Source of the DNA: Gammaproteobacteria bacterium
GTDB taxonomy: Bacteria; Pseudomonadota; Gammaproteobacteria; Eutrophobiales; Eutrophobiaceae
DNA length: 41,372 nucleotides
Assembly (NCBI GenBank): GCA_016193395.1
Contig: JACPSH010000039.1
Coordinates: 1 to 41,372, forward strand
Direction: 5' to 3'
Position 1 is the first letter of the stretch; each line of letters opens with the position of its first letter. Shown one piece after another: positions 1,963 through 12,678 of this stretch. Below the pieces are notes generated by a model. That model was not told the origin of the DNA and made no database searches. It saw only the letters and a program-made list of their open reading frames with translations. The translations under genes were made by a program, and so were the position numbers.

Positions 1963-3315
1963 TTAAATTTGTCTGAGTTGCGTCAGGATAGCCGTAGTCT
2001 GCTTGAGCCGTTCCACCACGGTGTTGACAAATACCTTGAGGAATCGAAGTTGAGTCCCTTCCTCGGCGCGGTCCAGGGTTGAGGCATTCACGCGGATGAG
2101 TGACACGTCGGTCTTGGCGGTGACGGTCGCCGTGCGCTCGGTGCGCGACAGAAAACCCATTTCGCCGAAACAGTCTCCCTCTTGCAGCGTATCGATATGC
2201 TGGCCATGCTTGTTGATATCGACGATGCCGGCGAGCAGGATGTAGAAGGAGTCATCCATTTCCCCTTCCTTGATGATGACTTTCCCGGGCGGGTAGGAAT
2301 TCCAGTTGCTGGCGCGCACCAGTTCCCAGATTTCGCCATCGGTAAAGCCGCGGAAAAATCCAAGTTCCTTCAAGGTATTGAATTTCTTGCGAAGTGCATC
2401 CTCGGTATCGATCTTTTCCAGATCGTCGAAAATCAGCGCCAGATCGGCAGCAAGGTCCAGACCGGTGGCATAGCGTTTTGAGTTCTTTCTTTTCATCATG
2501 CGGTTCAGGACGTATTCCAGTCCGTCGGGGACATCCGTACGCCAGGTATTGATGGGTTCGGGTTGCTCGTGCGTAATTTTCTGGGCGATGGCCGTGAGCG
2601 ATTCGGCCTTGAACGGGTTGTGCCCGGTCAACAGCTCGTACATGACTGTTCCCAGCGAAAAAAGATCCGTATTGCTGTTGATGTCCCATTCGTTGATCTG
2701 CTCGGGGGACATGTACAGCGGGGAGCCAAGGAAGCCGTCAAATTGCGTGGAGGTTTGATCCGCGCGGTTGATGCGCGCGATGCTGAAGTCGGAGACGCGG
2801 ATATCCCGATCCTGGGTGAACAGGATATTGCTGGGCTTGATATCGCGGTGGATGATGCCTTGGCGGTGCGCGTAATCGAGCGCCTTGGCGCATTTGTAGA
2901 CGATTCCGACGACCTCGCGCACGCCCAGGAGAGCCGCCGGTTCGCAGAACGCCGAGAGGGTCTTGGCGCCGGGAACGAATTCCATGACCAGGTAGCACAG
3001 ATCGCCGTCCACGCCTGCGTCATAAAGGGTCAGGATGCTCGGATGACTGAGCACGCCCGCGGCGTGCGCCTCGTTGAAGAACAGCTTGCGGAAGCGGGCG
3101 CCTTCCTGTCCCTTTCCTACGAACTGGGGATGCGCGACCTTGACGGCGACAGTGCGTTCCGAGAAGGGGTCGTGCGCGGCGTAGACCGTGCCCATGCTGC
3201 CGCGGCCGACTTCGTCCTCAATTTCGTACTTTCCAATGATCTCCGGACGGCCGGATACAGTGTGAAAGGTGCTGGCGTAGCGAGTAGTCGGCTCAGGATT
3301 CGCCATAATCGTCAT
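1963..3315 (-). CDS. Serine/threonine protein kinase with C-terminal cyclic-nucleotide-binding domain
   Basis: 450 aa, no membrane segment seen. Kinase domain about 28–300: glycine loop GRGSMG (37–42), VAVK with Lys59, HRDIKPSN with catalytic Asp158, SDFS with Mg-binding Asp176, and SPLYMSPEQ. The usual DFG is DFS. Residues about 318–435 form a cNMP-binding fold whose phosphate cassette FGEMGFLSRTERTATV keeps Glu385 and Arg394, so cyclic nucleotide binding is plausible. The order kinase then sensor resembles a Hanks-type kinase regulated in cis, parallel to eukaryotic PKG but with the domains reversed. Start ATG at 3315 or the second ATG nine bases inside. Transcribed divergently from uvrC with 95 bp between; ends against the palindrome array. 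Target proteins cannot be inferred from the context. Confidence 0.88.
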   Translation of the reverse strand: MTIMANPEPTTRYASTFHTVSGRPEIIGKYEIEDEVGRGSMGTVYAAHDPFSERTVAVKVAHPQFVGKGQEGARFRKLFFNEAHAAGVLSHPSILTLYDAGVDGDLCYLVMEFVPGAKTLSAFCEPAALLGVREVVGIVYKCAKALDYAHRQGIIHRDIKPSNILFTQDRDIRVSDFSIARINRADQTSTQFDGFLGSPLYMSPEQINEWDINSNTDLFSLGTVMYELLTGHNPFKAESLTAIAQKITHEQPEPINTWRTDVPDGLEYVLNRMMKRKNSKRYATGLDLAADLALIFDDLEKIDTEDALRKKFNTLKELGFFRGFTDGEIWELVRASNWNSYPPGKVIIKEGEMDDSFYILLAGIVDINKHGQHIDTLQEGDCFGEMGFLSRTERTATVTAKTDVSLIRVNASTLDRAEEGTQLRFLKVFVNTVVERLKQTTAILTQLRQI

Positions 3316-3410: not shown

Positions 3411-5246
3411 GTGTTGAACCTTCGCTCGAACAGTGACCAGGGTTTTCGCAAGACCGTGACGTCCAGGCCGGGTGTCTACCGGATGCTGAACGCCGACCAG
3501 GAAGTGATCTACGTCGGCAAGGCGGCGAACCTGAAAAAGCGCATCACCAGTTATTTTACCGGTCGCGAGCCCTCGCCTAAAACCCGGTCCATGGTCGCGC
3601 AAATCAGGGACATCCTCGTGACCGTGACGCGCACGGAAGGCGAGGCGTTGCTCCTCGAGAGCGACCTGATCAAGGAACTTAAGCCCCGGTACAACATCGT
3701 CTTCCGCGACGACAAGAGCTATCCGTTTTTGCACCTGTCATCGGTTCAGGACGTCCCGCGGCTGAGCTTCCACCGGGGCAGTCGACGCGGGAGCGGGCGG
3801 TACTTCGGCCCGTTTCCCGGGGCCGGGGCGGCGCGGCGCACGCTCAACCTGGTGCAGAAGCTGTTCCGGCTCCGCCAGTGCGACGATTCGTATTTCCGGA
3901 ACCGCACTCGTCCCTGCCTCCAGCACCAGATCCAGCGGTGCAGCGCCCCTTGCGTCGGATTCATTGAGCCGGAGGAATACCGGCGGGATGTCGAGCATGC
4001 AGTGATGTTTCTGGAAGGGCGCAACGAGGAAATCATCGAGGCGCTGAATGGTCCAATGCGCCGCGCGGCCGAGACTCTGGAATTCGAGCGCGCGGCGCAT
4101 TACCGCGATCAGATCGCCAGCCTGCGCCGTATCCAGGAAGAACGGCACGTCGCGGCGCCGGAAAATGAATGCGATGTGATCGCGTGCGTGGTTCGCGATG
4201 GCCAGGCCTGCATCCAGGCATTCTATTTCCGTGGCGGCAGGAATCTTGGCAACAGGGCATCGTTCCCCCGTCATGAAGCCGCCGAGTCGGACGATCGGAT
4301 TCTCGCGGCCTTTCTCACTCAACATTACCTGACGGGCAGGGGGCGCAATCAGGTGCCTGCACGCATTTACGTGAGTCACCTGCCGCCCGGCCGGGCGTTG
4401 CTTGAAAAGGTCCTTTCCGGGGATCGCCGCGCCAGGGTCCGCATCGTCCGGCCGATTCGGGGCAAGGCCGCGGCCTGGGTGCGTTTGGCGCGGGAAAACG
4501 CGGCGCTGGCGCTGGCGCAACATCTCTCGATCGGGCAAAGGAGTGCCTTCCGGCTTGCCGCGCTGGGTAATGCCCTGGGTGGCGGAAACGCACTGGAGCG
4601 GATTGAATGTTTCGACGTGAGCCACACGTCGGGAGAGGCCACCGTTGCCTCGTGCGTGGTGTTCGGTCCCGGCGGCGCGCTCAAGGGAGAGTACCGGCGA
4701 TTCAACATCGAGGGCATCGCCCCGGGAGATGACTACGCGGCGATGCGTCAGGCGATCGAGCGGCGTTACGCGCGGACCGCGTCCGAACAGGGGAAGTGGC
4801 CGGATTTGATCCTGATCGATGGCGGCAAAGGGCAGGTTTCCGCGGCCGAAGCGGCTCTGCGCGGGTTGAAAGTGGACGACCTGAAACTCATAGGCGTGGC
4901 AAAGGGACCCGCGCGCCGGCCAGGCCAGGAAAGGCTGGTCCTGACCGGGAGCGGGCAGCCGTTGCGGCTGGATCCCGATAATCCGGCGCTGCACCTGATC
5001 CAGGAAATCCGCGACGAAGCGCATCGCTTCGCGATCACCGGGCATCGGAGCCGTCGATCGCGGCGCCGGCGCGAGTCTCCATTGCAGCAGATCGACGGGA
5101 TCGGCAGCCGGCGGCGGCAGTCGCTATTGCGCCATTTCGGCGGCCTCCAGGGCGTCGAACGCGCAGGGGTAGAGGAGCTTGCCAAGGTTCCGGGGATCAA
5201 CAAGAATCTCGCACAGAGAATCTACAGCGCGCTACACGGCGGATGA
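3411..5246 (+). CDS. uvrC: Excinuclease ABC subunit C
   Basis: 611 aa, full length for UvrC, the nuclease that makes both incisions in nucleotide excision repair. GIY-YIG nuclease domain about 18–95 (GVYRMLNADQEVIYVGKA), the cysteine-bearing segment near 169–181 (CLQHQIQRCSAPC), the UVR helix for UvrB contact near 222–240 (LEFERAAHYRDQIASL), the RNase H-like endonuclease domain with Asp402 in FDVSHTSGE and Asp470 in LILIDGGKGQ, and a C-terminal helix-hairpin-helix pair (IDGIGSRRRQSLLRHF; VPGINKNLAQRI). Starts at GTG. Its stop overlaps the pgsA start by four bases (ATGA), the arrangement known from E. coli, so the two are surely co-transcribed. Confidence 0.98.
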   Translation: MLNLRSNSDQGFRKTVTSRPGVYRMLNADQEVIYVGKAANLKKRITSYFTGREPSPKTRSMVAQIRDILVTVTRTEGEALLLESDLIKELKPRYNIVFRDDKSYPFLHLSSVQDVPRLSFHRGSRRGSGRYFGPFPGAGAARRTLNLVQKLFRLRQCDDSYFRNRTRPCLQHQIQRCSAPCVGFIEPEEYRRDVEHAVMFLEGRNEEIIEALNGPMRRAAETLEFERAAHYRDQIASLRRIQEERHVAAPENECDVIACVVRDGQACIQAFYFRGGRNLGNRASFPRHEAAESDDRILAAFLTQHYLTGRGRNQVPARIYVSHLPPGRALLEKVLSGDRRARVRIVRPIRGKAAAWVRLARENAALALAQHLSIGQRSAFRLAALGNALGGGNALERIECFDVSHTSGEATVASCVVFGPGGALKGEYRRFNIEGIAPGDDYAAMRQAIERRYARTASEQGKWPDLILIDGGKGQVSAAEAALRGLKVDDLKLIGVAKGPARRPGQERLVLTGSGQPLRLDPDNPALHLIQEIRDEAHRFAITGHRSRRSRRRRESPLQQIDGIGSRRRQSLLRHFGGLQGVERAGVEELAKVPGINKNLAQRIYSALHGG

Positions 5247-5809
5247 TGAATATTCCCAATACGCTCACGCTGCTGCGCATCGTGCTGATCCCGGTTTTCG
5301 TACTCTTTTACTGTCTGCCCGTTGCGTGGAATTACCTTGCTGCCTGCTTCATCTTCACATTCGCGGCATTCACGGACCTTCTCGACGGCTACCTGGCGCG
5401 GAAATTGAACCAGACTTCCCGGCTCGGCGCGTTCCTTGACCCGGTTGCGGACAAACTCATGGTTGCAGTCGTGCTGGTCCTGCTGGTGCACAAGGACCCC
5501 AGGCTCCTGCTGGCCCTGCCTGCCGCGGTGATCATTGGCCGGGAGATCACTGTGTCTGCGCTGCGTGAGTGGATGGCCGAGCTCGGGGCCAGCAGCCGAG
5601 TGGCGGTCTCGATGTACGGGAAGATCAAGACCATCGCGCAGATGGTCGCATTGATATTGCTGTTGTTCCGCGATTCGCTTTGGGGTTTGCCGGTTTACGA
5701 AATCGGACTGGTGCTGCTGTATGTCGCGGCGCTGCTCACGCTCTGGTCCCTGTTCCAGTATGTCGCGAGCGCCTGGCCCAAGCTTCGGGAAACCCAGAAT
5801 AAACAATAG
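5243..5809 (+). CDS. pgsA: CDP-diacylglycerol–glycerol-3-phosphate 3-phosphatidyltransferase
   Basis: 188 aa integral membrane enzyme that makes phosphatidylglycerophosphate, the committed step to phosphatidylglycerol and cardiolipin. It carries the complete CDP-alcohol phosphotransferase signature: DLLDGYLARK followed by GAFLDPVADK, i.e. D-x2-D-G-x2-A-R-x8-G-x3-D-x3-D. N-terminus MNIPNTLTLLRI is typical of PgsA. Several hydrophobic segments span most of the length. Translationally coupled to uvrC through ATGA and followed by the tRNA genes, as in E. coli. It is distinct from the second CDP-alcohol phosphotransferase at 19731–20912, which sits with the ceramide genes. Confidence 0.97.
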   Translation: MMNIPNTLTLLRIVLIPVFVLFYCLPVAWNYLAACFIFTFAAFTDLLDGYLARKLNQTSRLGAFLDPVADKLMVAVVLVLLVHKDPRLLLALPAAVIIGREITVSALREWMAELGASSRVAVSMYGKIKTIAQMVALILLLFRDSLWGLPVYEIGLVLLYVAALLTLWSLFQYVASAWPKLRETQNKQ

Positions 5810-5913: not shown

Positions 5914-5989
5914 GCGGGAATAGCTCAGTTGGTAGAGCGCAACCTTGCCAAGGTTGAGGTCGCGAGTTCGAGACTCGTTTCCCGCTCCA
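5914..5989 (+). tRNA. glyW: tRNA-Gly(GCC)
   Basis: 76 nt with encoded CCA. Acceptor arms GCGGGAA / TTCCCGC pair fully; the D-loop has GTTGGTA; the anticodon stem ACCTT / AAGGT holds anticodon GCC at 5947–5949; the T-arm contains GTTCGAGAC. Its own promoter lies upstream and a rho-independent terminator begins 18 bases after the CCA, so it can be a separate transcript from the next two tRNAs. Symbol taken from the E. coli gene in the same position after pgsA. Confidence 0.97.
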
Positions 5990-6118: not shown

Positions 6119-6192
6119 GGCTGGGTGGCAGAGTGGCCATGCAGCGGCCTGCAAAGCCGTGTACGCCGGTTCAATTCCGACCCCAGCCTCCA
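6119..6192 (+). tRNA. cysT: tRNA-Cys(GCA)
   Basis: 74 nt with encoded CCA. Acceptor arms GGCTGGG / CCCAGCC, anticodon GCA at 6151–6153 in the stem CGGCC…GGCCG-like arm (CGGCCTGCAAAGCCG), T-arm CGGTTCAATTCCG. Seven bases separate it from tRNA-Leu, so the two are co-transcribed. A possible -10 (TAGAAT, 6103–6108) lies 10 bases upstream, but I see no good -35 and the palindrome at 6064–6095 occupies that region. Confidence 0.96.
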
Positions 6193-6199
6193 TTCACCT

Positions 6200-6538
6200 G
6201 CCCGGGTGGTGGAATTGGTAGACACAAGGGACTTTGACGTAATTGAGCGCCCAGTTCGGAAACGACTGGTGCGGATGGGGTCAAATTCGGGGAAACCTCA
6301 GCACCACGAGGTGGTGGCAATCCCGAGCTAAGCCCTGGAATGCCGAAAGGTCCATCGTCCAGGGAAAGTGTAGAGACTTGACGGCCCCTGCCTACGTCCC
6401 GGATTGAAGCTGGGATAGGGTAAAGGGAAAGTCCAGACCACAAATGCGTCTTAAGTGACGCAGCGGCGAAAGCCGTAGTGGGTACGAAAATCCCTCGGTG
6501 GAAACGCCGTGCCGGTTCGATTCCGGCCCCGGGCACCA
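6200..6538 (+). tRNA. leuZ: tRNA-Leu(UAA), gene split by a group I intron
   Basis: Exons are 6200–6234 and 6487–6538, giving an 87-nt tRNA with encoded CCA. Acceptor arms GCCCGGG / CCCGGGC; D-arm with AATTGGTAGAC; anticodon stem AGGGA / TCCCT; long variable arm CGGTGGAAACGCCG; T-arm GCCGGTTCGATTCCGGC. Joining the exons gives a seven-base anticodon loop CUUAAAA, anticodon UAA. Without removal of the insert, no tRNA fold is possible. The mature sequence closely follows E. coli leuZ, and the gene is in the leuZ position after cysT. This would be a main reader of UUA codons, rare in so GC-rich a genome. Confidence 0.95.
6235..6486 (+). ncRNA. Self-splicing group I intron (IC3-like) in tRNA-Leu(UAA)
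   Basis: 252 nt, inserted after U34 of the anticodon and ending in G (6486) just before AAAA of the 3' exon. The 5' exon CUU can pair with GAG at 6245–6247, giving the U·G pair that marks group I 5' splice sites. Core segments follow the cyanobacterial tRNA-Leu intron as I know it: GGGGAAACCT near 6289, GGCAATCCCGAGCTAAGCC near 6316, GTAGAGACTTGACGG near 6370, and AAGGGAAAGTCCAGACCACA near 6423. Further hairpins include P2 (CCAGT…ACTGG), CACCAC/GTGGTG, a P8-like stem CCTA…TAGG, TGCGTC/GACGCA, and a GAAA-capped stem near the end. No open reading frame for a homing endonuclease is inside. It should splice using a guanosine cofactor and RNA folding alone. Confidence 0.93.
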
Positions 6539-6777: not shown

Positions 6778-8523
6778 TCAAGTTGAAGAAACGACGTTGC
6801 GCCCAGGCAATACCGCGGCTGTTTCCTTGACCCATTCCTTGTCTTTCATGGCCACTGCATTGCCGTCCACAAGCCGGAAAACCCGATCCGCGGCCGCGCT
6901 GACCGCGGCGCGGTGCGATACGGCAATGATGGTCAGTTGACCCGCCAGGCCCTGCAGGCTCTCGCAAATCAACCTTTCGCTGTCCGGATCCAGCGCGCTG
7001 GTCGGTTCATCCAGAATCAAGAGTCGGGGCCGGTGCGCCAGCGCGCGGGCAATGGCGATACGCTGCCGCTGTCCACCGGACAGAAGACCGCCTCGCTCGC
7101 CGATCACCGTGTGAATGCCCTGGGGCAGGGTCGCGACGAAATCCCACCCCCCGGCATCCTTCAGCGCGCGTTCCGCGTCCGCAACCCCAAGGCCTGTCTC
7201 GCCCACGAGCACGTTGGCGAGGATGGTGTCGTGCAGGAGGATGGTTTCCTGGGATACATAACCGATCATCCGCCGCCACTGACGCAGGTTGATGTCATGC
7301 AGCGATACGCCGTCCACCAGGACCTGCCCGGACACGGGCTCGACGAGACCGCAAAGCAGATCGAGGAGCGTGCTTTTGCCGATCCCCGATGGACCGAAGA
7401 TCGCCGTAAAGGAGCCGGCCGGGAAGCGGAGCTGGAGGCCCTGGAACAATTCCTGGTTTCCGTACTGGAAAAACAGGTCGCGCAATTCTATTTCGCGGTG
7501 GAGATGCGGTTCGATCGAACCGGCGGCGCGTTCGGAGGCCGCGCGCGCCGCGCTGGCGGCATTGCGCAAGGCCCAGTAGGCGCTTTCCTGCGCGATCAGG
7601 TGCTGAAACTGCCGCTGCACTTTGTTGACGAGGCCGAGCACCCGGACCAGCAGGAACACGAGAATCATGACCTGCGGCAGCGACATCTGCCAGCGCACCA
7701 GCGCGATATACAGGCCGGTTGCCGCCAGCGCGGCGAGCATAGGTTCCTGGAGGGCGCGCAGGGCCTCCTTGCTCCACACCTCCTGTCTCATGGCCGTTTC
7801 AAGCTGCGAGTTTTGATCCCGAAGGATGGCGTCGGCGACGTTGTCGCGCGCCATGGCCTTGAGTGGCTTCACCGAACCGAGCACGTCGGTCAGATAGGCG
7901 AGGAGTGAGCGAAGCAGTCGCGTCTGGCCCGCTCCCGCGCGACGTGAAGCGCGCACGAGGCGGTGCAGCATCAGTGAAAAAATGGAGCCCACAATCAACG
8001 CCACGACGGTCGCCTGCCATGAGACGAGGAGTGCCACCACCGCGTAAATGACAACCTGGACGGCGAAGGCCAGGACGGATGCGCCGTATTGGAAGCCGGT
8101 GGCGGCCCGATAGGCTTCCGTGGCCACGGAATTCGCAAGCGAGCCGGCGGGCTGACGCAGGTAATATTCCCAGCGGCTGGCCAGCAGGGCGTCGATGAGT
8201 TCCAGTCGCAACGCCGTGGCGACGTGCGCGACGGTGTATCCGACCTGCCGGTTCGCCAGCAGCAGCAACAGGCTCTTCAGCGTCATTCCCGCGACAATGA
8301 TCAGCAGCATGACAGCGATAGTAGGTTCTATGCCGGCCGTGAGCAGGGCGTCGGTGATGAATTTTCCCGCGCCGGAACGAGTATCGCCGCCCACGGCGGT
8401 CGCGAGCAGGGGCAACAGCGTTGTCAGGCTGAGGCCCTCGGCCAGCCCGGCGACCAGCAGCGCCAGCAGCATGATGATGCTGCGGCGCGGGTAGGTCAGG
8501 ATGAACGCAAGGAGGGTGCGCAT
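6778..8523 (-). CDS. MsbA-like ABC exporter (fused membrane and ATPase domains)
   Basis: 581 aa half-transporter. Residues 1–310 hold about six membrane helices; the ATPase follows with Walker A GPSGIGKST (377–385), a glutamine-loop segment GYVSQETILL, signature LSGGQRQRIAIARAL, Walker B LLILDEPTSALD and a switch His in VSHRAAV. Exporters of this build flip lipids or drugs across the inner membrane. It overlaps the serine palmitoyltransferase gene by 28 bases and is the last gene of that operon, so a product of the ceramide pathway is the natural cargo. This is inferred from context; the sequence alone does not give the substrate. Ordinary msbA is usually next to lpxK, which is absent here. 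Confidence 0.85.
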   Translation of the reverse strand: MRTLLAFILTYPRRSIIMLLALLVAGLAEGLSLTTLLPLLATAVGGDTRSGAGKFITDALLTAGIEPTIAVMLLIIVAGMTLKSLLLLLANRQVGYTVAHVATALRLELIDALLASRWEYYLRQPAGSLANSVATEAYRAATGFQYGASVLAFAVQVVIYAVVALLVSWQATVVALIVGSIFSLMLHRLVRASRRAGAGQTRLLRSLLAYLTDVLGSVKPLKAMARDNVADAILRDQNSQLETAMRQEVWSKEALRALQEPMLAALAATGLYIALVRWQMSLPQVMILVFLLVRVLGLVNKVQRQFQHLIAQESAYWALRNAASAARAASERAAGSIEPHLHREIELRDLFFQYGNQELFQGLQLRFPAGSFTAIFGPSGIGKSTLLDLLCGLVEPVSGQVLVDGVSLHDINLRQWRRMIGYVSQETILLHDTILANVLVGETGLGVADAERALKDAGGWDFVATLPQGIHTVIGERGGLLSGGQRQRIAIARALAHRPRLLILDEPTSALDPDSERLICESLQGLAGQLTIIAVSHRAAVSAAADRVFRLVDGNAVAMKDKEWVKETAAVLPGRNVVSST

Positions 8524-9731
8524 GCGGAGTTGACGTCCCGGCCGGCTGCCAACACCGGGTCGCGCAGTTCAGCGAAGGCGCCGATCAGCGTTTCGATCTG
8601 CGCGGCCGAATGCGCGGCGCTGACGCTGCAGCGCACGAGCGACTTGTCCCCCGGCGCCGCCGGAGGGAAAACGAGATTGACGTATACGCCACGTTCGAAC
8701 AGGCCGCGCCAGAGCGTCAGGGCCTGTTCGCGGCTGTCCAGGATGGCGGCGACTACCGGGCTCGGCTCGGGGCCCAGCCTATAGCCGAGCCGTTTCAATC
8801 CACCATACATTTTGCGTGCGTGTTCCCAGAGGCGGACGCGCAGATCCTTCCCATTTCGCAGCAGCCTGAGCGCGGCGCGCGTCGAGGCGATCACGGACGG
8901 CGAGGGCGACGCCGTGAACACATAAGGGCGGCTGGCATAGCGGATCAGGTCCAGCTCGGGGCGATTGCTTGCGCAATATCCGCCGACACTGCCCAGGCTC
9001 TTGCTGAAGGTGCCCAGGATGAAGTCGACCTGCGAAAGCACGTCGGCTTCTTCAACCAGGCCACGCCCGTATTCCCCAAGCACGCCAAGCGAATGCGCTT
9101 CATCCACCAGGAGGCAACTGCCGCATTCGCGCGTCGCGGCGACGATTTCGGCGAGCGGCGCCCGGTCACCGAGCATGCTGTAGATACCCTCGACGATGAC
9201 CAGTGTCGACGCGGCCCGTTCGCCGAGGCGGGTCAGTCTCTTCCTGAGATCCGCGGCGTCATTGTGGCGGAAGCGCAGCACCTCCGCTCCACTGAGCTTG
9301 CAGCCGTCATAGATGCTGGCGTGGCTGTCCGCGTCGATCATCAGCACATCCCCGGGACGCGTCAGGCCGGAAATCATCCCGAGGTTTGCCTGATAGCCGG
9401 TCGTGAAGACGATGGCCGACCGGCATTCGTAGAATTCGGCGATCTCGCGTTCCAGCGCCCGATGGCCGGCAAAGCTGCCGTTGGCCATGCGCGAGCCGGT
9501 GGTTCCGGTGCCATCATGGTCAATCGCGGCATGCGCAGCTTCCAGGCATTCCGGCGCGAAAGTCAGTCCCAGGTAGTTATTGGTGCCCGCGAGCAGAACG
9601 CGACGTCCGGCGATCCGTGCCTCGGTCGGCGAATACAACTCGTCGATCGGCATGCCGAAGGGATCGGCGCCGGTCGCCAGCAGTGCGGTGCGATCCTCGC
9701 GCAGTTTCTCGAACTTGCCGAGCAGGGTCAT
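8496..9731 (-). CDS. spt: Alpha-oxoamine synthase, probable serine palmitoyltransferase
   Basis: 411 aa PLP enzyme. Recognisable marks: NNYLGLT, GTGTTGSR, DADSHASIYDG with the His that stacks on PLP (His137), VDEAHSLGVLGEYGRG with Asp210, and GTFSKSLGSVGGY with the PLP lysine Lys244. The family includes KBL, BioF, HemA and serine palmitoyltransferase. The choice of serine palmitoyltransferase rests on the neighbours: a free-standing ACP overlapping its start by four bases, a ketone reductase and an acyl-ACP synthetase, the same order as in the Caulobacter ceramide locus. It would condense serine with an acyl-ACP to 3-ketosphinganine. BioF is the main alternative, but no other biotin gene is nearby. 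Confidence 0.88.
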   Translation of the reverse strand: MTLLGKFEKLREDRTALLATGADPFGMPIDELYSPTEARIAGRRVLLAGTNNYLGLTFAPECLEAAHAAIDHDGTGTTGSRMANGSFAGHRALEREIAEFYECRSAIVFTTGYQANLGMISGLTRPGDVLMIDADSHASIYDGCKLSGAEVLRFRHNDAADLRKRLTRLGERAASTLVIVEGIYSMLGDRAPLAEIVAATRECGSCLLVDEAHSLGVLGEYGRGLVEEADVLSQVDFILGTFSKSLGSVGGYCASNRPELDLIRYASRPYVFTASPSPSVIASTRAALRLLRNGKDLRVRLWEHARKMYGGLKRLGYRLGPEPSPVVAAILDSREQALTLWRGLFERGVYVNLVFPPAAPGDKSLVRCSVSAAHSAAQIETLIGAFAELRDPVLAAGRDVNSACAPSLRSS

Positions 9732-10012
9732 GGCCGGCTTTCGGCGGGGGAAGTCAGGATCTGGTGGATCACCGTCGCCAGGTCGCGCACCGTGCGTACG
9801 TCCGCGAGCAGGTTCATCGGCACCGACACGTCGAACTCGTCTTCAATCTCCAGGATCACATCCAGGACCTTGACGGAATCCAGGCCAAGCTCGGTCACGA
9901 GTTCTACGTCTTCATCGATTGCCACGTCCGGGCCCGCGAACCGTTCAAGATGCCTGATCAGGCGGGTCAGGATATCGTCATAGGATCGGGCCACCTTCTT
10001 GCCTCGTGTCAT
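9728..10012 (-). CDS. Acyl carrier protein, dedicated to the ceramide pathway
   Basis: 94 aa, acidic, four-helix carrier. The phosphopantetheine site is Ser46 in ELGLDSVKVLDV; helix II/III region VILEIEDEFDVSVP is typical. About fifteen residues longer at the N-terminus than house-keeping AcpP. It overlaps the serine palmitoyltransferase start and the reductase stop by four bases each (ATGA), so all three are translationally coupled. It would carry the fatty acid loaded by the synthetase at 10927–12678 and hand it to the palmitoyltransferase. Confidence 0.9.
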   Translation of the reverse strand: MTRGKKVARSYDDILTRLIRHLERFAGPDVAIDEDVELVTELGLDSVKVLDVILEIEDEFDVSVPMNLLADVRTVRDLATVIHQILTSPAESRP

Positions 10013-10917
10013 CCGTCAAGCAGTTGTGCACTGTCGCGCAGGGCGTCGGCGAGCCGGATCCGTGGCGACCAGTCCAACGCCGTGCGGACGGGGCCATTGT
10101 CGCAGACCCAGTTCGCATGCGTAAGCTCACGTACTTTCCCCGGTGTCAACATGGGCAGGCGTCCCGTGACCCTGCCGTAAAGGAGATTGAGTCCCGCGGC
10201 ACAATATAACAGCGGGATCGGCAATGAAATGACGCGCATGCGGCGCCCCAGGCTGGCCTGTGCCACAGCCGTGATGGTTTTTCCGTCGTAGCCTCCAGGC
10301 ATGCCGTCGTCCAGTTCATAGGGGCCGGGACCGGGTCGGGACGCGGCAAGCCAGCAAAGCACGGCTGCGGCGAGATCATGGACGTGAAGGAGGCTGAAGC
10401 GCTGATGAGGGCGTCTGGGGAGCGGGAGAAATCCACGCCGCATGCAGTCGAGGAGCGGACGGATCTCGCGATCCCCCGGGCCGTAGACTGCCGTCGGACG
10501 GAAAACGGTCGCTTGAATGGCGCCGGCATGAGCGGACAACAGTTGTTCGGCCCGGTATTTGCTGTCCGCATACCAGGACAAGTGGGGCTCGCGCGCCACC
10601 AGGAGCCGCACCGGTGTCCGGCGGCGGCGGATCGCCGCGAGCAGATTTGCGGTCCCCCCGAGGTTGGTCGCGTTGAATTGGGCGGCACTCGCCCCACGCA
10701 CGAGACCGGCGCAGTGAATGATGGTGTCGCAATCGCCCGTCAGCTCGCTCAATGAACCGGAATCGGCGAGATGGCCGTGGATCCAGCGGATCCCGGGGTT
10801 TGGGTGACGAGGCACGCGGGTCAGTGCATTGACCGACCAACCGCGCCCCAAGAGGGCGGAGAGAATTACGCTACCGATGAAACCCGTGCCGCCGGTAACC
10901 GCCACCGGTGCGGGCAT
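10009..10917 (-). CDS. NAD(P)-dependent epimerase/dehydratase, probable ceramide-pathway ketone reductase
   Basis: 302 aa extended short-chain dehydrogenase. The Rossmann motif is GGTGFIG (9–15); DTIIHCAGLVRG matches the second strand; the catalytic pair is Tyr116 and Lys120 (WYADSKYRAEQL), then RPTAVYGPGDREI. The usual catalytic Ser/Thr segment reads LLVAREPHLSW, less typical. In Caulobacter an enzyme of this kind at the same place reduces the 3-keto group during ceramide synthesis; that role is inferred here from gene order (synthetase–reductase–ACP–palmitoyltransferase). Four-base overlap with the ACP gene; nine bases from the synthetase gene upstream. Confidence 0.85.
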   Translation of the reverse strand: MPAPVAVTGGTGFIGSVILSALLGRGWSVNALTRVPRHPNPGIRWIHGHLADSGSLSELTGDCDTIIHCAGLVRGASAAQFNATNLGGTANLLAAIRRRRTPVRLLVAREPHLSWYADSKYRAEQLLSAHAGAIQATVFRPTAVYGPGDREIRPLLDCMRRGFLPLPRRPHQRFSLLHVHDLAAAVLCWLAASRPGPGPYELDDGMPGGYDGKTITAVAQASLGRRMRVISLPIPLLYCAAGLNLLYGRVTGRLPMLTPGKVRELTHANWVCDNGPVRTALDWSPRIRLADALRDSAQLLDG

Positions 10918-10926
10918 TGGGAGAGT

Positions 10927-12678
10927 TCAGGCTTGCTCGGCGTCGGCGGCTTGCTGCTGATCCCAGCCGGATCGTTCCACGAACCCCTGGCGCGCGGCCG
11001 TGCGCGACAATTTTCCGGACGAAGTGCGCGGGAGCGTATGGGACGCCACGAGTTCCACCAGGCAGTGGATGCCGAAACCCTCGTAAATCAGGCGCTGCAG
11101 CCGCAGCACGAGCGACTGCCGCATGCCGGGTTCCGACAGGCGGCACTCCACGACCAGAACTACGCTCGGGTTGCCGTTGCCGTCGCGGACGGCAAAGGCC
11201 GAGGAGTCGCCCATGCGTACTTCCGGTTGCATTTCAGCAAGTTCCTCCAGGTCCTGAGCGCGGATATTGCGGCCGTTGACGATGATGACGTCCTGCCCAC
11301 GGCCGGTCAGATAAAGATCGCCTTCCATCATATAACCCAGATCGCCCGTATCGAGCCAGCCATCGTGTCCCAGCGCGCGACACGTGGCTTCCGGGTCATC
11401 GAGATATCCGTCCATCAGGCTGGGTCCACGCACCAGTACGCGCCCGAGCTTCAGATCCGGCAACGGTCGGCCTTCATCGTCGACAATGCGAACGGCATGA
11501 TGGGGCAGGGGCTGACCGCAGTTGACGAAGGCGTTGGCCTTTCTGCTGTGCGCCGGGATGGGCACCACCGCGCTGCGTTCTGAAAACGCGCGTAAATTGA
11601 CATGCATTACGTCAAGCCCGCGGCCGAGAGGCGGGAAGCTGACGGCGAGGGAAGCTTCCGCCAGGCCATAGCACGGCAGAAACGCTTTCGGGTCAAAACC
11701 GGTGCACGCGAGTTTCTCCGCAAAATTTTCCAGGATATCCGCGCGAATCATTTCCGCTCCGACGCCCGCCGCGCGCCAGCTCTGAAGATCCAGTTCGGCA
11801 AGGTCCGCGCCACGCACGCGGCGCGCGCACAACTCAAAACCGAATGGCGGGCTGAATGCAATCGAGCAGCGGTTCCTGCTGATGAGGCGGAGCCATTGCA
11901 CCGGGCGGATCGCGAAATCGCGCGTGCGCAGATAGTCGACCGAGAGCTGGGAAACAATCGGGCCGAGCACGAAGCCGACCAGGCCCATGTCGTGGTAGAA
12001 GGGCAGCCAGGACGCGCACCGATCGCCCGGGCGCACGCACAACCCGCTGCGGACGATACCCTGCAGGTTGCTCATCACAGCGCGCTCGGATATGACAACC
12101 CCGCGTGGCGACCGCGTGCTGCCCGAGGTGAATTGCAAGTAGGCGGGTTCGTCCGGGCCGGCGGTCGGCAGAACCCGGTCTGAAGCCGGCAGGGCTTCCA
12201 GTTCCACGGGGGTTCCCACCCAGATCAGCCTCTCCAGATCCCTGGCAGCCTCGGCCAGGAAGGTGTGGAATTCAGGCGGGGCGATTGCGACCCTCGCGTG
12301 GCCACTCTCGAGCAGTCCGTGCAGCTGCTGAACGTAGATGTCGTGGCTGCCCAGATTGACCGGAACCGGCATTGCGAATGGAATCAATCCGGCGTAGCGG
12401 CAAGCGAAGAACAGGATGATAAACTCGGGATCCGTTCCCGCGACGAGCGCGACGCAATCGCCGCGCTTCACTCCAAGCTGCAGCAACTGCTGCGCCATCG
12501 AACGCGCGCGTCTCCGAAGTTCGCTGTAGGGCAGTGCAGTCCGCAGCTGTCCCCTGGCGTCGTAGAAGTTACAACCGGTTACGCCCTGCGCGGCATATTC
12601 CAGTGCCTCGGTGAGCGTTTGAAAATCCGCGAGTCTTTGTGGCTGGCTGTTGTCGGTCCGAGTTGTTTGCTGATCCAC
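10927..12678 (-). CDS. Fatty acyl-AMP ligase / acyl-ACP synthetase
   Basis: 583 aa adenylate-forming enzyme. AMP-binding P-loop LQFTSGSTRSPRGVV (181–195), CYGLAEASLAVSFPP, then DGWLDTGDLGYM and GRGQDVIIVNGRNI, the hinge to the C-terminal lid. The NGRNI ending and the insertion style fit fatty acyl-AMP ligases, which pass acyl-AMP to a carrier protein instead of CoA. It is the first gene of a four-gene overlapping run with the reductase, ACP and palmitoyltransferase, plus the ABC exporter, and would charge that ACP. The promoter should lie in 12679–12747; I see no convincing hexamers. A terminator-like hairpin for the upstream gene lies at 12748. Confidence 0.9.
   Translation of the reverse strand: MDQQTTRTDNSQPQRLADFQTLTEALEYAAQGVTGCNFYDARGQLRTALPYSELRRRARSMAQQLLQLGVKRGDCVALVAGTDPEFIILFFACRYAGLIPFAMPVPVNLGSHDIYVQQLHGLLESGHARVAIAPPEFHTFLAEAARDLERLIWVGTPVELEALPASDRVLPTAGPDEPAYLQFTSGSTRSPRGVVISERAVMSNLQGIVRSGLCVRPGDRCASWLPFYHDMGLVGFVLGPIVSQLSVDYLRTRDFAIRPVQWLRLISRNRCSIAFSPPFGFELCARRVRGADLAELDLQSWRAAGVGAEMIRADILENFAEKLACTGFDPKAFLPCYGLAEASLAVSFPPLGRGLDVMHVNLRAFSERSAVVPIPAHSRKANAFVNCGQPLPHHAVRIVDDEGRPLPDLKLGRVLVRGPSLMDGYLDDPEATCRALGHDGWLDTGDLGYMMEGDLYLTGRGQDVIIVNGRNIRAQDLEELAEMQPEVRMGDSSAFAVRDGNGNPSVVLVVECRLSEPGMRQSLVLRLQRLIYEGFGIHCLVELVASHTLPRTSSGKLSRTAARQGFVERSGWDQQQAADAEQA

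Follow-up and report, generated by a model that had tools for sequence, protein, structure and literature searches.

The intron in the tRNA-Leu(UAA) gene (trnL) of cyanobacteria and plastids is the textbook ‘ancient immobile’ group I intron and the basis of plant barcoding. A tRNA-Leu(UAA) intron has reportedly also been found in a deep-subsurface gammaproteobacterium, by Vepritskiy and colleagues in 2002. Group I introns of bacterial tRNA genes have been reviewed as mostly cyanobacterial, with a few alpha- and betaproteobacterial cases in addition (PMC4033280), and a 2014 review places all phage introns in protein genes (PMC3984707). Small HNH proteins may be encoded inside group I introns, as for I-PfoP3I of cyanophage Pf-WMP3 (PMC3428280).

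The locus described here lies in a 41,372 nt stretch of DNA (contig JACPSH010000039.1, assembly GCA_016193395.1; hereafter the window) from a gammaproteobacterium of the family Eutrophobiaceae. Judged from sequence, it most likely holds an allele of a once mobile, IC3-like group I intron family that lacks a homing endonuclease gene (HEG), located between U34 and A35 of tRNA-Leu(UAA).

Genomic context and detection

The gene order at the locus is uvrC-pgsA-tRNAGly-tRNACys-tRNALeu (Table 1), which is the E. coli order uvrC-pgsA-glyW-cysT-leuZ. Adjoining uvrC is a gene for a Ser/Thr protein kinase with a C-terminal cyclic-nucleotide-binding-like domain (1963–3315). Downstream, on the minus strand at 8496–12678, a serine palmitoyltransferase gene (NF047599, 615.8 bits) is followed by three genes whose products resemble, by eye, an acyl carrier protein, an NAD-dependent epimerase-like protein and an acyl-AMP ligase; this looks like a sphingolipid-type gene cluster, here in a gammaproteobacterium.

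Table 1. Features of the tRNA-Leu(UAA) locus and elements of its intron (window coordinates)
Feature	Position	Strand	Description	Evidence
uvrC	3411–5246	+		TIGR00194, 581 bits
pgsA	5243–5809	+		TIGR00560, 183.5 bits (cut-off 109)
tRNA-Gly(GCC)	5914–5989	+	Upstream neighbour	Default ARAGORN and default Rfam scan
tRNA-Cys(GCA)	6119–6192	+	Upstream neighbour	Default ARAGORN and default Rfam scan
5′ exon of tRNA-Leu(UAA)	6200–6234	+	Acceptor, D arm, 5′ half of anticodon arm; final bases C32 U33 U34	ARAGORN on spliced exons, tRNA-Leu(taa)
Group I intron	6235–6486	+	252 nt; last base is omega-G	RF00028, 42.9 bits, E 7.4e-10; covariation, 35 homologues
UU for P10	6243–6244	+	Can pair with A35 A36	P10 98.6 % paired
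Internal guide GAG	6245–6247	+	Pairs with C32 U33 U34 (P1); U.G at splice site	P1 invariant in 35 sequences
P3, 5′ strand	6277–6282	+	3′ strand 6383–6388; crosses P7	100 % paired; compensatory A-U/G-C/C-G
P4, 5′ strand	6287–6291	+	3′ strand 6322–6326	99.4 % paired
P6 and loop	6333–6364	+	32 nt; no HNH gene here; HEG loop of relatives	All P6 pairs covary
P7, 5′ strand	6373–6378	+	Guanosine-binding helix; 3′ strand 6430–6434	100 % paired; U-A to C-G in two sequences
P8	6391–6420	+		Inner pairs covary
P9 and P9.1 hairpins	6445–6476	+	GAAA caps P9.1	Pairing check and covariation
3′ exon of tRNA-Leu(UAA)	6487–6538	+	Begins at A35; CCA encoded	ARAGORN on spliced exons

When the exons are joined, ARAGORN reads an 87 nt tRNA-Leu with anticodon UAA. 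The initial annotation had placed in the leuZ position a 252 nt, ORF-free insert with group I core segments, ending in G and sitting between U34 and A35, the site of the cyanobacterial/plastid intron. Its coordinates (6235–6486) prove exact, the insertion site is confirmed on the spliced exons, and no endonuclease-type ORF is found within the intron. The core segments are upheld by the RF00028 match and by covariation over 35 homologues.

The covariance-model search that had been proposed as a check gives a match, though one below the curated cut-off. RF00028, the Rfam group I intron model, matches 6225–6448 in a search of a 351 nt stretch under an E-value threshold; the match spans model positions 1–253, i.e. 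the full model. A search of the whole genome returns a single match, the window intron (E 1.4e-9). The curated cut-off of RF00028 is 50 bits, and the intron, scoring lower (Table 1), is for this reason missed by a default Rfam scan. Default ARAGORN and the default Rfam scan together report only tRNA-Gly and tRNA-Cys at the locus, with both the intron and tRNA-Leu missed; with introns allowed, ARAGORN finds a 252 nt intron, misplaced by 1 nt, and assigns the gene to tRNA-Phe(GAA). A sole and essential tRNA-Leu(UAA) gene is invisible to default annotation tools, and such genomes therefore appear to be without tRNA-Leu(UAA).

Intron fold, covariation and predicted splicing

Under the canonical group I pairing, P1, P2, P3, P4, P5, P6, P7, P8, P9, P9.0, P9.1 and P10 all form in the window with 0 mismatches. 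The core from P3 to P8 is present with its P3/P7 pseudoknot, P3, P4, P6, P7 and P8 being mismatch-free, and the splice sites carry the group I hallmarks, with U34 opposite the G of GAG and omega-G at 6486. The general helix architecture is compatible with subgroup IC3. Thermodynamic folding recovers most canonical helices and is 4 SD better than that of dinucleotide shuffles.

Covariation was assessed in an alignment of 35 gammaproteobacterial tRNA-Leu introns. In this alignment 93.5 % of cells pair, a figure somewhat favoured by the pairing scheme, which was taken from the window and from known core rules. Compensatory changes in P2, P3, P5, P6, P8, P9 and P9.1 are independent of how the pairing was derived. 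Both-sided changes occur in 36 pairs and 288 cells, more than in any of 500 shuffles. The covariation score of 0.304 likewise exceeds every one of the 500, for which it is 0.120, and slid partners reach 0.089 at most.

In the precursor tRNA the intron core would fold and exogenous GTP bound in P7 would attack after U34, which P1 holds in place through pairing of C-U-U with GAG; U34 would then attack after omega-G, and the product would be a mature tRNA-Leu(UAA) for reading UUA. The host genome (2.71 Mb in 60 contigs, 96.65 % complete) has 37 Rfam tRNA matches, with UAG, CAA, CAG and GAG among the leucine anticodons. No second UAA leucine tRNA, which the initial annotation had named as counting against its reading, was found in this 96.65 %-complete genome; the anticodon occurs at the window locus only, and the single copy is the intron-bearing one. 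UUA accounts for 2 of 402 leucine codons in eight window genes. Being rare but used, with one tRNA to read it, UUA should require a functional UAA tRNA in small amount, and its rarity might allow a poorly spliced tRNA to be tolerated.

The same rarity, along with the Rfam score under the cut-off, would accord with a loss of splicing, the gene being silent and UUA read by another route. Every canonical pair is intact, however, P3, P4 and P7 hardly vary or vary with compensation, the exons are intact, and UUA still occurs in a genome in which no other UAA leucine tRNA was found; loss of splicing is thus very improbable. A self-splicing group I intron in the only tRNA-Leu(UAA) gene of the cell is, by contrast, very probably what the sequence encodes.

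Distribution of the intron

Within the host family, introns in tRNA-Leu(UAA) were found in six genomes (G003, G004, G007, G011, G019 and G023) in addition to the window. Most family members examined have an uninterrupted gene, and in many of them, congeners of G007 and G023 included, the intronless gene adjoins the same tRNA-Cys, usually with tRNA-Gly. The intron is patchy even inside genera g8 and g11. Since the genome is a draft of 60 contigs and such introns occur in phages too, the contig might in principle belong to another organism, e.g. a phage or a cyanobacterium, through faulty assembly or binning. Against this, the tRNA order of the uvrC-pgsA-tRNA locus that holds the intron is a conserved one in the family, and in G003 and G019 the corresponding position is taken by an intron-tRNA 80–81 % identical to that of the window; an artefact of this kind is hardly credible.

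In an even sample of 369 gammaproteobacterial genomes the exact core pattern was present in 12, a frequency of roughly 3 % for this exact core, with none for the reversed pattern used as a control. Some RF00028 match was present in 56 of the 369, many in tRNA-Gln and others in tRNA-His, tRNA-Asp, tRNA-Lys and CAU-type genes. Loci L082–L107, from gammaproteobacterial genomes, carry group I introns in the anticodon loops of tRNA-Gln(CUG) and likewise of His, Asp, Lys and CAU-type tRNAs. At L079:550–868 a 234 nt intron is located between C34 and A35 of tRNA-Leu(CAA), a different isoacceptor interrupted at the same site.

A core scan of named genomes gave at least 119 loci, of which at least 78 have the body and anticodon arm of tRNA-Leu(UAA). 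The latter are mostly gammaproteobacterial, with others in Alphaproteobacteria, Bacteroidota, Acidobacteria and one member of the Phycisphaerae. Single MAGs labelled Chloroflexi and Tenericutes are also among the tRNA-Leu(UAA) matches listed; for single contigs, a MAG label can be wrong. The intron is also present in a cultivable relative, Thiohalophilus thiocyanatoxydans DSM 16326 (L151). The remaining loci among the at least 119 listed are mainly in tRNA-Arg, tRNA-Thr and CAU-anticodon genes. Six introns, mostly from CPR genomes, are left out of the Leu count: ARAGORN assigns them to Leu(taa), but the tRNA body is that of a CAU-anticodon tRNA. No cyanobacterium appears in the record titles of the at least 119 loci listed, the pattern being the G-C variant of P4. 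The initial statement that places known tRNA introns of proteobacteria in Ile or Arg genes is far too narrow, given occurrences in Leu, Gln, His, Asp, Lys, Arg, Thr and CAU-anticodon genes. Likewise, the picture of bacterial tRNA introns drawn in the earlier review (PMC4033280) looks outdated.

Homing endonuclease genes in related introns

Sister introns at the same site carry HEGs. In G023 and G007 the introns, of 702 and 697 nt respectively, contain an intact 154 aa HNH ORF, antisense, inside the P6 loop; in HEG-bearing relatives this gene is about 460 bp. The intron of G004 retains a decayed piece with two stops. An intact or nearly intact antisense ORF is also present in introns of gammaproteobacterial type at L141, L142, L146, L156, L160, L190, L206, L207, L230, L244, L252 and L253 (those of L141 and L252 start later and are 134 aa long), and that of viral contig L120 is an intact HNH ORF; at L193 and L224 the ORF is shortened or fragmentary. 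Eleven HEG members give a gap-free core alignment in which the CxxC, ELxH and CPNCH motifs are invariant; overall the protein is conserved as CxxC...ELDH...CPNCH. Pfam HNH_3 matches 11 of the 11 scanned, the first weakly and under the cut-off. A search of solved structures with the HEG family profile returned no match. Non-synonymous differences (pN about 0.2) compared with synonymous ones (pS about 0.8, saturated) indicate that the protein is under purifying selection. In Bacteroidota, the tRNA-Leu(UAA) introns L165, L167, L208 and L211 have a different HNH ORF, on the sense strand and upstream of the core; its unlikeness to the antisense P6 ORF implies that HEGs invaded more than once.

The window intron lacks both a HEG and any recognisable remnant of one, and a search of the rest of its genome found no HEG homologue, so that loss in its own line is inferred from its relatives. 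The 21 nt anticodon-arm sequence CAAGGGACTTAAAATCCCTCG does not vary among the 18 intronless genes examined, and most intron-bearing genes have it too. A homing target should be conserved in this way; leucine tRNA function alone could also keep the sequence. Arrival of the intron by homing would involve cleavage of uninterrupted CAAGGGACTTAAAATCCCTCG by the HNH endonuclease encoded antisense in P6 of relatives, repair of the cut site copying the intron in, and later loss of the endonuclease gene from the window lineage. A homing history of this sort is a likely one for the window intron.

Relationships among the introns

A broad intron tree had one Anabaena sequence as outgroup, the single cyanobacterial sequence compared. 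The gammaproteobacterial Leu introns group together (support around 90), with HEG-bearing and HEG-less members intermixed; gammaproteobacterial introns in tRNA-Gln, tRNA-His and tRNA-Asp make up a clade of their own. Deeper branching is poorly separated because the introns are short. A focused tree places the window intron in a set of five rows (99/94), namely three family introns (window, G003 and G019) and two others. The rows nearest to it are Thiohalomonas denitrificans, G019, Thiohalophilus, G003 and an HEG-bearing Pseudomonadales MAG. The seven family introns require 6 label changes on the intron tree and come together in 0 of 200 bootstrap trees; their union in one clade gives p 0.094 in the AU test, i.e. 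no formal rejection.

These relationships bear on the supposition of the initial annotation that a short, ORF-free intron, GC-rich like its host, implied long residence or a very old transfer. The GC comparison holds only roughly, the intron being not far off at 56.7 % but below the 62.9 % of the window. An old, vertically inherited guest or an ancient cyanobacterial transfer, with no homing at this locus and HEGs entering the other family introns separately, would accord with that proximity in GC, with the absence of an ORF and with the inclusion of same-family G003 and G019 in the smallest well-supported clade around the window. It accords poorly with the patchy presence within g8 and g11, with the scatter of the seven family introns just described, and with the placing of Thiohalomonas denitrificans and the HEG-bearing Pseudomonadales MAG among the nearest introns, and is on balance unlikely. 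Long residence or very old transfer is thus not supported: the intron is patchy in the family and its genera, HEGs are intact in two members and decayed in one, and intron relationships depart from those of the family, albeit with the AU result given above.

Phages and plasmids

The core is carried by 27 IMG/VR contigs, many of them with the intron in tRNA-Leu(UAA) and others in tRNA-Arg, tRNA-Thr or protein genes; a cyanobacterial intron pattern had no match in viral contigs. Four contigs with tRNA-Leu(UAA) introns (L119, L125, L132 and L133), and likewise L127 with an intron in tRNA-Arg, each have a terminase gene and a T4-type portal gene, and are therefore very probably phage genomes. Some of the phage contigs also have introns in tRNA-Arg(UCU) and in another tRNA. 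For nine proteins encoded close to the tRNA introns of the phages, a PHROG scan yielded little. The claim that phage introns occur in protein genes only (PMC3984707) looks outdated against these data. Direct phage-to-host transfer of the window intron was considered and set aside, being without support in the tree, where phage and gammaproteobacterial Leu introns group weakly (64).

The conjugative plasmid pCTX-M3 (NC_004464.2, L139:1362–1660) carries an unannotated tRNA-Leu(UAA) gene with a 221 nt group I intron. On plasmids such as this one the gene adjoins aac(3)-IId and an AAA ATPase gene, presumably tmrB or tmrB-like. Among 5426 complete E. coli genomes, 635 contain a match to the 299 bp plasmid tRNA-Leu gene, and in 624 of these the match extends over 80 % or more. 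The plasmid intron groups with tRNA-Leu introns of Paracoccus, Rhodobaculum and Amaricoccus (support 80), which hints at the source of the resistance segment. Phages and plasmids are thus existing vehicles; delivery of the window intron by them does not follow.

Comparison with described introns and endonucleases

The family to which the window intron belongs is wider and more mobile than first assumed. In bacteria, tRNA-Leu(UAA) may be a homing site of a widespread mobile group I family with HNH endonucleases, moved between phyla by phages and plasmids that have intron-bearing tRNA-Leu genes of their own; the cyanobacterial/plastid trnL intron would then be one immobile descendant and no fixed ancient relic. 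This wider proposal is tentative, and we consider it somewhat likelier to be wrong than right. With intact and decaying HEGs in sister introns at the same site, the origin and mobility of the trnL intron become testable.

The cyanobacterial/plastid tRNA-Leu(UAA) intron (IC3) shares gene, U34/A35 site and core motifs with the window intron, and its trnL barcoding primer motif GGCAATCCTGAGCCAA reads GGCAATCCCGAGCTAA in the window. The window intron differs by the G-C variant of P4, by its gammaproteobacterial host and by its sister introns with HNH HEGs; the sequence comparison covered one Anabaena intron. The intron attributed to Vepritskiy and colleagues agrees in gene, site and host class, a likeness by description and not by sequence. 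The Azoarcus tRNA-Ile and alphaproteobacterial tRNA-Arg introns are of the same general type, small, ORF-free and located in the anticodon loop, but interrupt other genes. I-PfoP3I resembles the HEG product of the relatives in being a small HNH protein encoded within a group I intron, whereas the HEG considered here is antisense, lies in P6 of a tRNA intron, and is present in the relatives of the window intron only.
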